From Mucilaginibacter sp. (GTDB taxonomy: Bacteria; Bacteroidota; Bacteroidia; Sphingobacteriales; Sphingobacteriaceae): 64,000 nt of DNA. Under the pieces are notes generated by a model. That model was given only the letters and a program-made list of their open reading frames with translations, was not told the DNA's origin and searched no databases. Shown here one piece after another: positions 51,342-56,429 of this stretch (position 1 is its first letter; each line of letters starts with the position of its first letter). The translations under genes were made by a program, and so were the position numbers. The stretch spans positions 62,001 to 126,000 of the forward strand of contig JAQBOA010000022.1 in NCBI GenBank assembly GCA_028288305.1, in the 5' to 3' direction.

Positions 51342-52112
51342 TTAGGGTCGTATCGATTTAACAAACCCTTGTATCTTTTCTAAGTAATTCTCGGTACCTA
51401 AAAGTTTAACAAAAGCTGTACCTACAATTGCGCCATTTGCATATTCGCATGCTTTTTTGAATGATTCGTTATTTGTTATTCCAAACCCGAAAATTGTCGG
51501 ATTTTTTAATTGCATGGCTTTGATACGTTTATAATAGTCTTCAATACTGTTTGATAGTTGCAAGTTTATTCCTGTTATGGTTGATGAGGAAAGCAAATAA
51601 ATAAAGCTATTGCTCAATTCATCTATTTTGCAGATCCTTTCTTCGGAAGTTTGTGGTGTAACCATGAAGATATTGCTCAGATTATTATCCTTAAAGAACC
51701 CGGAATATAATTTTTCATACTCATAAATAGGCAGGTCGGGTACAATAATGCCGTCAACACCAACTTCTGCAGCCTTTTTACAAAAACGTTCTACTCCATA
51801 TTGAACTATGGGGTTAACATAGCCCATCAGCATAATGGGAATGCTAACATGCTTGCGCAAATCCTTTAATTGTTCAAAAAGAACGTTTAAAGTCATACCA
51901 TTTTCCAATGCTGTTTGTGAGCTATGCTGAATTGCTGGGCCGTCCGCCACCGGATCAGAATAAGGGAACCCGATTTCTAAAAAATCAACACCCGCTTTTT
52001 CCAGCGCTTCGGCAATATCAAGAGTAGTATTAAGTTGCGGATAACCTGCAGTAAAGTAAATGGATAATAGGTTATCCTTTTTGGTGTTGAATAATTGGTT
52101 TAAGCGGTTCAT
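51342..52112 (-). CDS. trpA: tryptophan synthase alpha subunit
   Basis: FTAGYPQLNTTLDIAEALEKAGVDFLEIGFPYSDPVADGPAIQHSS, GIIVPDLPIYEYE. Confidence 0.97.
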   Translation of the reverse strand: MNRLNQLFNTKKDNLLSIYFTAGYPQLNTTLDIAEALEKAGVDFLEIGFPYSDPVADGPAIQHSSQTALENGMTLNVLFEQLKDLRKHVSIPIMLMGYVNPIVQYGVERFCKKAAEVGVDGIIVPDLPIYEYEKLYSGFFKDNNLSNIFMVTPQTSEERICKIDELSNSFIYLLSSSTITGINLQLSNSIEDYYKRIKAMQLKNPTIFGFGITNNESFKKACEYANGAIVGTAFVKLLGTENYLEKIQGFVKSIRP

Positions 52113-52127
52113 TTAAAGTTCATTATT

Positions 52128-52278
52128 TGTCTGAATCAGGATTTTTCACTTGTTGTCTGTTTTCAATGGAGTTCAAGAGGGCTACGCTGTTTGCAGGATT
52201 TAAGGATTTGCAGGATTATTTTAAACCCATCACAGATAGCATCTTGTAAATCTTAAAATCCTGTAAATCCTGATTTAG
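52128..52278. repeat. TTGTCTGAATCAGGATTT-family inverted repeat between trpB and trpA
   Basis: ttgtctgaatcaggattt ... gcaggatttaaggatttgcaggatt ... aatcctgtaaatcctgattta. Confidence 0.8.
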
Positions 52279-53456
52279 AAATTAAAATATTTTATATACG
52301 TATCCAAATCCTTATCTCCCCTACCCGAAATGCAGATCACCACATTATCGCCCGGTTTGAATTTCATTTTTTCAAGCTGGGCTAGCGCATGAGCTGTTTC
52401 AATTGCTGGGATAATCCCTTCCAGTTGCGAACAGAGCAAACCAGCCTGCAGTGCCTCATCATCAGTAATACTCACATACTGTGCGCGATTAACTTTATAT
52501 AAATAAGCATGTTGTGGACCTATTCCCGGATAATCCAGTCCTGCCGAAATGGAATAAGGCTCCACTACCTGTCCGTCATCAGTTTGCATAAGCAACGTAC
52601 GGCTACCATGTAAAACACCTTCACGACCTAAAAAGGTAGTGGCAGCAGAGAGGCCACTTTCAACACCCTTACCGGCGGCTTCGACAGCTACCAGCTTAAC
52701 ATTTTCATCATCTAAAAAATGGTAAAACATTCCCATGGCATTACTCCCCCCTCCTACACAAGCCATTACATATTCAGGTAATTCTTTGCCGGTTTTTTCT
52801 AGCAACTGCTTTTTTGTTTCAAAAGATATAATGGATTGAAATCTTGCAACCATATCAGGGTAAGGATATGGCCCAACAACAGACCCTATAATGTAATGGG
52901 TATCAACCGGGTTGCCAATCCAATCGCGCAGGGCTTCGTTAGTGGCGTCTTTTAGTGTTTTACTTCCTGACGTAGCCGGAACCACCTTTGCCCCGAGCAT
53001 TTTCATACGCGAAACATTTGGAGCTTGGCGTTCCATGTCAATTTCGCCCATATAAACCACACATTCAATACCTTTTAATGCGCATACTGTAGCGGTGGCT
53101 ACCCCATGCTGCCCCGCACCGGTTTCGGCAATAATGCGTTTTTTGCCCAAACGCATTGCTAAAAGTATCTGGCCAATTGCATTATTGATCTTATGTGAGC
53201 CGGTATGGTTTAAATCTTCGCGTTTAAAAAATATGTTAGCCCCGTATCTTTCCGAGTATCTTTTAGCATGATATAATGGAGAAGGCCGGCCCACGTAATC
53301 CCTTAAAAGCTGGTCAAATTCGGCCTTAAAATCAGCATCATTAATGATAGATAAATATTTCGTCCGCAATTCTTCTACATTGGGATAAAGCATTTCAGGG
53401 ATATAGGCTCCGCCAAAATCTCCATAATAGCCCAGTTCATTAACTCCGTAGTTCAT
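52275..53456 (-). CDS. trpB: tryptophan synthase beta subunit
   Basis: [63 protein letters not shown]. Confidence 0.97.
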
Positions 53457-54081
53457 TGGTAATATTTTGTTTAATAATGTCAAATGCCTTTTCTAACTTT
53501 TCTATATTTTTTATTCCGGGTTCAGTTTCAAACTTACTATTCAAATCAACACCATAAAATTGAGGATGACTTATATTTTTTATTTCTTCCAAATTATCAA
53601 GACTTAACCCTCCGCTTAAAAAGAAAGGAACATCGAGTATATATTTATTAAGTATAGACCAGTCAAATGTTTTACCTGATCCTCCATGAATATCCGTTTT
53701 CGTATCAAAAAGAAAAAAATCCACTTTATTTTTGTACGCTGCTAGCTGTTCAAAATTAAAACTATTATTCAACCCAAAAGCTTTGATCACTTTCACTTTA
53801 TCTTTAAATGAGTTACAAAATTCCGGGCTTTCATTCCCATGTAACTGAATTGCATCAAAACTATATTTATCAATCAATTCGTTAATTCTTTCAGCGCTTT
53901 CATTTACAAATACGGCTGTTTTAAAAATTGAAGCAGGGATATTGTTTAACTGTTCAAAAGGCACATCATTAATAAATCTCGGTGAATTGCCATAAAATAT
54001 AAAGCCCATATAATCAGGGACAAAATTTGAAACAGCTCTAATATTCTCCGGATCTTTTAATCCGCAAACCTTTATTTTCAT
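53440..54081 (-). CDS. trpF: phosphoribosylanthranilate isomerase
   Basis: [71 protein letters not shown]. Confidence 0.96.
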
Positions 54082-54082
54082 G

Positions 54083-55072
54083 TTAATTTTCTACCAAAGT
54101 TTTAAAGCTTTTTAACGCTTTTTTGCTGATTAATGCTTCCTCAGCCTCATAAAAACAATCAGAAAAGCTTTTTTCAGGGCCAATTGTTTTAATTGCCAGG
54201 GCTGCGTTCGCTAAAACCACATTATTCTGTGCGCTCGTAGCCTCACCATTAAGTACTTTCATAAAAATAGCTGCTGATTCGCTTATACTTTTGCCGCCTA
54301 AAATTTCTATTGAATCTAATTTTTTAAACCCCAGGTTTTCAATACTGTTTATTTTTTCGCCATCGGCAGAAAAAGTTTTGAAGTCGCAGGTAAGAGAAAC
54401 TTCATCATAACCATCCAAGGCATTTACAATAGTATATTTTACATCCGATTTTTGATATAGGTAAGCATAAATACGCGCTAGCTCTAAATTAAAAACGCCA
54501 ACGAGCTGGTTTTTTGGTTTTACCGGATTAACCATTGGCCCGAGCATATTAAAAAATGTTTTTACACCAAGTTCTTTGCGTATTGGCGCTACAGTTTTCA
54601 TCGCAGGATGGAACAAAGGTGCATGCAAAAAGCAGATATTAGATTTATTAATATTGTCTTTAAGTTTATCGTTGTCATTTGTAAAACGATAACCTAAAAA
54701 TTCCATTACATTAGATGAACCGCAACCTGATGAAACACCATAATTACCATGTTTAGCAACTTTATAGCCTGCACCAGCAACAACAAAAGAAGCAAGAGTA
54801 GAAATGTTAAATGTATCTTTTCCGTCGCCACCGGTACCGCAAAGATCAATTAGTTCGTTTGTTTCCAGATCAACAGGCAGGCAAAGTTCAAGCATTGCGT
54901 CACGAAAGCCTTCAAGTTCATTAACTGTAATACTACGCATACAATAAGCTGTCATAAAAGCAGCCATCTGCGAATTATTGTATTTGCCTTGTGCAATGGC
55001 TATCAATATCTCTTTCGATTGATCCCTTGTAAATGTCTTATTCTCAAAAAGATAATTTAATATTTGTTTCAT
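54083..55072 (-). CDS. trpD: anthranilate phosphoribosyltransferase
   Basis: DLCGTGGDGKDTFNISTLASFVVAGAGYKVAKHGNYGVSSGCGSSNVMEFLG, FFNMLGPMVNPVKPKNQLVGVF. Confidence 0.97.
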   Translation of the reverse strand: MKQILNYLFENKTFTRDQSKEILIAIAQGKYNNSQMAAFMTAYCMRSITVNELEGFRDAMLELCLPVDLETNELIDLCGTGGDGKDTFNISTLASFVVAGAGYKVAKHGNYGVSSGCGSSNVMEFLGYRFTNDNDKLKDNINKSNICFLHAPLFHPAMKTVAPIRKELGVKTFFNMLGPMVNPVKPKNQLVGVFNLELARIYAYLYQKSDVKYTIVNALDGYDEVSLTCDFKTFSADGEKINSIENLGFKKLDSIEILGGKSISESAAIFMKVLNGEATSAQNNVVLANAALAIKTIGPEKSFSDCFYEAEEALISKKALKSFKTLVEN

Positions 55073-55073
55073 A

Positions 55074-55158
55074 CCCCCTAACCCCCTAAAGGGGGAATTT
55101 TTTTGTTAATTATTTTAATATTTACCACCTGATAACTCCCCCTTTAGGGGGTAGGGGG
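55074..55158. repeat. CCCCCTAACCCCCTAAAGGGGGA inverted repeat abutting the trpD start codon
   Basis: Left arm 55074-55096, right arm 55137-55158 TCCCCCTTTAGGGGGTAGGGGG; one-base indel between the arms. Confidence 0.9.
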
Positions 55159-55159
55159 C

Positions 55160-55192
55160 AAAAAAAAGGGCTACCAAATCTGGCAACCCTTC
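55160..55192 (-). terminator. trp attenuator terminator
   Basis: Minus strand AAGGGTTGCCA-GATT-TGGTAGCCCTT followed by T tract; 9 core pairs (two G-U), tetraloop. Confidence 0.88.
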
Positions 55193-55216
55193 TGAATATT
55201 TAAAAAAACAAAAATG

Positions 55217-55242
55217 GAATTGCCTTACGATCAATCGTTAAG
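55217..55242 (-). promoter_or_regulatory. trp leader pause hairpin / antiterminator segment
   Basis: CTTAACGA-T-TGATCGTAAGG can form the 1:2 hairpin; GGCAATTC (55217-55224 complement) can pair with GGGTTGCC of the terminator 5' arm (8 pairs, two G-U). Confidence 0.7.
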
Positions 55243-55278
55243 CCACCACCAATTATTGTTTAGTATTTTCACTATCAT
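55231..55278 (-). CDS. trp operon leader peptide MIVKILNNNWWWLND
   Basis: ATG ATA GTG AAA ATA CTA AAC AAT AAT TGG TGG TGG CTT AAC GAT TGA; three consecutive Trp codons (55243-55251) just before the attenuator hairpins and trpD. Confidence 0.88.
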   Translation of the reverse strand: MIVKILNNNWWWLND

Positions 55279-55357
55279 TATATCCCACAAATATGGAAAT
55301 AGTTTTTCCTAAAAGCAAGCAGAATGATATTTTTACATGGTGATTAAATTAGTGATT

Positions 55358-55458
55358 AGTTGATTGTGTGAGTAGTTAATTAAGTTAGGTTGTAAAAACA
55401 TTTAACCTAATGCCATTAATATAATCAAACACCCAATCAACCACTCACACAATCAACT
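55358..55458. repeat. 16-bp perfect inverted repeat AGTTGATTGTGTGAGT with extra units
   Basis: Arms 55358-55373 and 55443-55458. Confidence 0.88.
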
Positions 55459-55478
55459 ACTCACGCAATCAACCAAAT

Positions 55479-56429
55479 ATGGCCATACATACAAGAAAAA
55501 TCAACCCGGAAGACGACCTCGGCTTTGGTCTGCAGCCTGTTATTAAAAGCCAGCCACTAATAAATAAAGACGGGTCGCCAAATGTTAAACGCATAGGCTT
55601 GCCATTTTTTAATACAGCCAACAACTACCATATGCTAATAACCATGAGCTGGACAAAATTCTGGCTTTTGGTTTTAAGTGGTTATTCAATAGTAAATATG
55701 ATTTTTGCTGTAGTCTACATATCACTGGGCACGGATAGTCTTAATGGAACATTAGGAAATACTTCCTTTGATCACTTTATGAATGCCTTCTTTTTTTCGG
55801 CCCAAACCCTTTCAACTGTAGGATATGGCCATATTTACCCCAGAGGCATGTGGGCAAATAGTGCGGCTGCATTAGAATCAATGATGGGTTTGCTTGCATT
55901 TGCATTGGCTACGGGCTTATTATACGGACGTTTTTCAAGACCTTCAGCTCGAATAGTCTACAGTAAAAATTTATTAGTTGCCCCATACCTTGAAAATAGT
56001 AAAGGCATTATGTTTAGGCTGGCAAATTTTAGAAGGAACATATTGATTGACCTTCAAATAGAGATAATTTTTTCATTCAATGAAACCGTGAATGGAAAAA
56101 CAGAGAGAAGGTTTTACCCGCTCGAATTAGAACGGCGCAATGTTAGTGTGCTTACTACAAGCTGGACCATTGTTCATCCGCTTAACGAAAAAAGTCCGCT
56201 TGTAGATATGACAAAAGAAGACCTTGAAAATACAGAAGCCAGCTTTGCGGTTTTATTAAAAGCATTTGACGATACATTTTCACAAACAGTACATTCCCGT
56301 ACTGCTTACCAGCATCACGAAATTGTATGGGGCGCTAAATTTAAACCTGTTTTTGACAGGGCGCCTGATGGACGGATTGTATTGGATTTGAGCAGGATTA
56401 ATGATCATGAATTGGTAGTAAATATTTAG
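55479..56429 (+). CDS. inward-rectifier (Kir-type) potassium channel
   Basis: Two TM segments, filter TLSTVGYGHIYPRG, C-terminal Kir-type beta domain (FRLANFRRNILIDLQIEII). Confidence 0.92.
   Translation: MAIHTRKINPEDDLGFGLQPVIKSQPLINKDGSPNVKRIGLPFFNTANNYHMLITMSWTKFWLLVLSGYSIVNMIFAVVYISLGTDSLNGTLGNTSFDHFMNAFFFSAQTLSTVGYGHIYPRGMWANSAAALESMMGLLAFALATGLLYGRFSRPSARIVYSKNLLVAPYLENSKGIMFRLANFRRNILIDLQIEIIFSFNETVNGKTERRFYPLELERRNVSVLTTSWTIVHPLNEKSPLVDMTKEDLENTEASFAVLLKAFDDTFSQTVHSRTAYQHHEIVWGAKFKPVFDRAPDGRIVLDLSRINDHELVVNI

Follow-up and report, generated by a model that had tools for sequence, protein, structure and literature searches.

A probable leader-peptide attenuator of the Bacteroid-trp kind before trpDFBA in Mucilaginibacter sp.

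Attenuators in the Bacteroidetes/Chlorobi were reportedly mentioned by Vitreschak et al. in 2004. The closest described element is Bacteroid-trp (Rfam RF01692; Weinberg et al. 2010, PMC2864571), designated 'Bacteroidete tryptophan peptide leader RNA', which has been likened to the E. coli attenuator and was found before the trp operon of Flavobacterium psychrophilum (PMC6414381). Leader-peptide attenuators of F. psychrophilum have also been proposed from transcript structures (PMC9723704). The literature searched yielded no paper on trp attenuators in Sphingobacteriaceae. The element analysed here lies within 64 kb of Mucilaginibacter sp. DNA, the whole of which we refer to as the window. It is like Bacteroid-trp in phylum, trp-gene context and Trp-codon leader, and differs from it in standing before trpD of a split operon. 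By description, it also resembles the F. psychrophilum attenuators (PMC9723704, PMC6414381), which are of the same phylum and proposed mechanism and belong to another order.

At gathering threshold, Rfam models gave no match at the site. RF01692 aligned over its full model length (1–131) with positions 55298–55182, at 39.3 bits and E = 0.0028 in a 351-nt scan; as its gathering threshold is 49 bits, the site had gone unannotated. The original prediction had called the element unannotated, which holds at the Rfam threshold; the novelty this implied was overstated, since RF01692 has been known since 2010 and matches the same site below threshold. We regard the element as a putative divergent, sub-threshold member of the RF01692 kind, which by the strict Rfam cut-off is not a member though it would work like one. 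Across the order RF01692 matched in 14/101 genomes, over threshold in 3, and in 13 of the 14 matched loci trpD followed a WWW leader. Homologous trpD leaders (L118/L003 and L116) were over the RF01692 threshold, at 53–54 bits.

The features of the locus, from the promoter to the end of the operon, are as follows.

55316–55318, minus strand: TTG, the -33 element of a predicted Bacteroidetes promoter (TTG stands 19–20 nt before the -7 box in 65/71 relatives).
55288–55295, minus strand: -7 box CATATTTG of the same predicted promoter (consensus TAnnTTTG), predicted +1 at about 55283 (an 8-mer ending in TTTG in 71/71 leaders).
55278–55231, minus strand: trp leader peptide ORF MIVKILNNNWWWLND, 15 codons, from ATG at 55278 to TGA at 55231 (sequence, and homologous WWW, rarely WW, leaders).
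55243–55251, minus strand: three tandem Trp codons, the control codons (in relatives the middle codon is TGG in 71/71 and the outer two in 70/71).
55235–55242, minus strand: segment 1 CTTAACGA, forming the pause/anti-antiterminator hairpin with segment 2 (pairing and compensatory changes).
55217–55230, minus strand: segment 2 TCGTAAGGCAATTC, its 5′ part pairing with segment 1 and GGCAATTC (55224–55217) with segment 3 (2:3 duplex energy).
55189–55181, minus strand, with an extended arm from 55191: segment 3 GGGTTGCCA, the 5′ arm of the terminator and 3′ arm of the antiterminator.
55160–55176, minus strand: segment 4 TGGTAGCCC (55176–55168) and the T-tract (55167–55160), an intrinsic terminator (3:4 pairing).
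54083–55072, minus strand: trpD, the first gene of the operon (TIGR01245, 305.8 bits against a cut-off of 199).
53440–54081, minus strand: trpF, phosphoribosylanthranilate isomerase (top NCBIfam match PRAI, E = 2.9e-50, under the equivalog cut-off).
52275–53483, minus strand: trpB, given as the longest ORF, the real start probably lying more downstream (TIGR00263, 581 bits).
51342–52112, minus strand: trpA (TIGR00262, 232.7 bits).

Read on the minus strand, 55278–55231 opens with ATG ATA GTG and AAA ATA CTA, continues with AAC AAT AAT and TGG TGG TGG, and closes with CTT AAC GAT TGA. Tandem Trp codons in a short, presumably translated ORF ahead of trp genes are what a ribosome-mediated trp attenuator calls for. 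The ORF, three Trp codons, four segments and T-tract of the original prediction agreed base for base with this reading. Segment 1, which had been placed one base beyond the Trp codons, adjoins them directly, the codons ending at 55243 and segment 1 running from 55242. The terminator stem was longer than first noted (AAGGGTTGCCA/TGGTAGCCCTT, 55191–55181 / 55176–55166), and 1:2 pairing took in 7/8 positions with one A.A mismatch.

The best explanation of this arrangement is very probably a ribosome-mediated transcription attenuator for trpDFBA, and we infer that it responds to tryptophan. Transcription would start directly in front of the leader ORF, judging from the promoter, and a ribosome would translate the 15-codon leader peptide. 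With charged tRNA-Trp scarce, the ribosome would stall on the three Trp codons and hide segment 1, so that segment 2 could pair with segment 3 while segment 4 has yet to be synthesized, and transcription would continue into trpD. With tryptophan plentiful, the ribosome would reach the stop codon and cover the start of segment 2, leaving the 3:4 terminator to form; with no ribosome at all, 1:2 and then 3:4 would pair and transcription would stop as well.

The computation of this scheme hid the RNA upstream of the ribosome leading edge and left out segment 4, as if it had still to be transcribed. Under these conditions the window element had its segment 3 bound by upstream RNA with a probability of 0.87 with the ribosome on any Trp codon and 0.16 with none, and at the stop codon, a state sensitive to the assumed footprint, at 0.27 with the edge at +12 nt and 0.88 with it at +9. 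The same computation for the E. coli trp leader (sequence verified in a comparison with 5,406 genomes) gave 0.62, 0.00 and 0.05 (Trp codons, stop, no ribosome), and the means of 71 relatives were 0.80, 0.34 and 0.30. Equilibrium folding with a masked ribosome gave no switch; as the terminator always won, the switch must operate kinetically, like that of E. coli. The window element is like E. coli trpL (RF00513) in its tandem Trp codons, four segments, mutually exclusive 2:3 and 3:4 pairings and three-state behaviour. It differs in having no sequence match to trpL, no Shine-Dalgarno site and a predicted 5′ UTR of about 5 nt, in having its stop codon in the 1:2 loop, and in preceding trpD rather than trpE. 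Comparative evidence and the three-state folding logic support the classical E. coli-type architecture originally proposed.

Pairing was assessed across relatives. Among 71 distinct trpD leaders, segment 1 had a downstream pairing partner for 6.9 of its 8 positions (4.6 after shuffling), and segment 3 paired with the segment-2 region at a mean of -11.3 kcal/mol (shuffled, -6.0). In an alignment of 42 distinct leaders the 1:2 and 3:4 stems had 91.7% standard pairs; 9/17 of their pairs had changed on both sides, with 39 double-changed cells against 13 in shuffles, covariation counts that are inflated by the kinship of the sequences. The 3:4 stem taken by itself had 96.7% standard pairs and both-side changes in 5/10 pairs, and all slid-stem controls were clearly worse than the real 1:2 and 3:4 stems. 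Compensatory sets were visible in the alignment for 1:2 (CTT/AGG, CAC/GTG, CCT/AGG) and for 3:4 (GGGTT/AACCC, GGATT/AATCC, GGCTT/AAGCC). RNAalifold recovered the terminator and nothing else, 1:2 being short and out of register by a column in some rows; for this reason the test of 1:2 used named pairs and an alignment-free scan. The mutually exclusive 2:3 and 3:4 pairings, together with 1:2, were borne out by pairing, covariation and folding before segment 4 is made.

A TrpD search provided 80 named loci. Those of Mucilaginibacter were closest, at up to 87% identity, followed by those of Pedobacter, Pelobium, Sphingobacterium and Cytophagales. A short WWW ORF was present before trpD in 59/60 of the loci L002–L061, at a distance of about 95–500 nt. 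No WWW leader was found in L060, where the contig begins about 1.3 kb before trpD, and the leaders of L011 and L040 have two adjacent Trp only, as against WWW elsewhere. A covariance model built from the trpD leaders of the relatives (R1) matched in 150/151 genomes of the order, in most of them at a single place; for the 42 sequences that went into the model, themselves from this order, a match is built in, which does not hold for the rest. Lack of conservation of the WWW leader and its pairing had been named as evidence against the element, and is contradicted by the 150/151 genomes, the covarying 1:2 and 3:4 stems and the strong 2:3 pairing. The single order genome with no R1 match is 1.7 Mb and has just a distant TrpE relative. 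In the wider class, R1 matched in 38/198 genomes. Twenty-five of these loci were read, and 23 had a short ORF with WW or WWW; the gene after the leader was usually trpE, twice trpB and once trpD (in the same family). In another family, R1 and RF01692 coincided at a single locus (L159, 90.7 bits).

The codons before the Trp run are also conserved. Asn occupied 153/213 positions at codons -3 to -1 (55252–55260 in the window, and the relatives), with AAT and AAC mixed, and in other families the Asn run was seen again in trpE leaders such as LNNNWWWLNS. Part of this conservation may reflect pairing, AACAA lying opposite UUGUU in the modelled minimum-energy fold.

The predicted promoter conforms to the Bacteroidetes consensus of TTTG near -33 and TAnnTTTG at -7 (PMC7366714); in F. 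psychrophilum the box lies at -12 to -5 (PMC9723704). The predicted 5′ UTR of about 5 nt would make the transcript near-leaderless, and in nearly all relatives a 5′ UTR of about 1–13 nt is predicted. Such a start would be unusual for the phylum, since about 3.7% of Bacteroides thetaiotaomicron 5′ UTRs are below 10 nt (PMC7366714) and 5.5% of F. psychrophilum mRNAs are leaderless (PMC9723704). A precedent for a leaderless Trp leader is trpL of Sinorhizobium meliloti (PMC7298713). Upstream of the promoter is a near-perfect inverted repeat, ACTCACACAATCAACTA(A/C)TCAC (55352–55373 and 55443–55464), unique to this place in the genome.

A chance origin of the leader and its segments is excluded. Counting both strands of the 64 kb, TGGTGGTGG is present a single time, against an expectation of 0.27. 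The 406-nt intergenic region was dinucleotide-shuffled 20,000 times; any short WWW ORF turned up in 33 of the shuffles, and one plus a T-run at the correct distance in 13. The 119-nt leader folds at -33.5 kcal/mol (z = -4.4), which 0/200 shuffles equalled. Conservation in relatives settles that the observation is real.

Intrinsic terminators are common in intergenic regions, and a hairpin scan here would give about 0.5 by chance, so the hairpin and T-tract could be no more than the terminator of an upstream transcript, with a WWW ORF beside them by coincidence. We consider this highly improbable: the nearest upstream gene (55479–56429) is divergent and reads away from the leader and hairpin, only the 13 of 20,000 shuffles imitate the arrangement, and WWW, 1:2, 2:3 and promoter are conserved jointly across the order. 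Conservation and shuffles together rule out a chance ORF or a plain terminator. The divergent neighbour bears a weak resemblance to a potassium channel, and was also found beside the trp operon in the Mucilaginibacter and Pedobacter loci read out.

It is equally hard to credit that tryptophan is sensed by another device, be it a T-box, a Trp riboswitch or a TRAP-like leader-binding protein. The trp genes of Firmicutes are controlled in such ways; what is conserved here is a run of Trp codons in a leader that would be translated, and a 2008 survey counted T-boxes as absent from Bacteroidetes/Chlorobi (PMC2494555), which speaks against a T-box. The window had no match to the covariance models of the T-box leader (RF00230) or the proteobacterial Trp_leader (RF00513), nor to any Rfam riboswitch, and with zero matches these identities were rejected. 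Somewhat less remote, yet still improbable, is an attenuator whose short terminated RNA, or its peptide, has a second target in the transcript of the other trp half. S. meliloti offers a model for this, since its leaderless trpL RNA (rnTrpL) works in trans on trpDC (PMC7298713). The window element is like S. meliloti trpL (peTrpL/rnTrpL) in its Trp leader ORF, here predicted to be near-leaderless, and in both organisms the trp genes are divided among operons. In S. meliloti it is the trpE(G) leader that reaches trpDC in trans, whereas here each half has a leader of its own; trans action is unneeded, because both halves carry their own attenuator.

The trp operon of this genome is split into trpDFBA and a separate trpE-trpG-trpC cluster. 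A further leader, MIKINHNNNWWHQLILAAG, equipped with a promoter and a terminator of its own, precedes trpE of trpEGC (own genome, locus L083, 733–876). RF01692 did not match this leader up to E = 1, so its assignment came from its WW codons, promoter, terminator and position; its folding logic was weaker (0.55 stalled against 0.23). Every trpE in 30 family genomes (this one and 29 relatives) was preceded by a short leader ORF with Trp codons, as WW or WxW in 27. In the Cytophagales loci read out, trpD lay within an undivided trpEGDC... operon with the WWW leader before trpE. In Fulvivirga marina (L064, about 1670–2000), trpE is preceded by two complete tandem WWW leader-plus-terminator units spaced about 150 nt apart.

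A dispersed G/C-rich palindrome, CCCCCTTTAGGGGGTTAGGGG (55074–55151), of which the genome contains 11 exact copies, has its two arms in the stretch that separates the attenuator from the trpD start codon, where they could pair into a large stem at the very start of trpD. Elements like it were present at the equivalent place in L003, L007, L009 and L021. Matches of the window to Rfam miRNA families correspond to this palindrome and are not real miRNAs.

The kind of element is already known (RF01692, 2010), and the finding is solid but ordinary; what is added to the original prediction is the putative trpE attenuator, the predicted promoter and the near-leaderless start. A bolder reading, which we think rather unlikely though worth stating, is that with trp split in Sphingobacteriaceae each half has a near-leaderless attenuator and the trpD leader has kept its Asn-rich stretch as amino acids, the setting of the switch depending in part on initiation at the extreme 5′ end of the RNA and perhaps on the nascent peptide. 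If true, this would be a Bacteroidota variant of attenuation that dispenses with both a Shine-Dalgarno site and a 5′ UTR of normal length. Most such elements in the order escape the curated Rfam model. The leaders described here would place an attenuator on each half of a split trp operon, and provide a firm and testable regulatory annotation for the trp genes of an entire order, within a phylum that has seen hardly any tests of attenuation.
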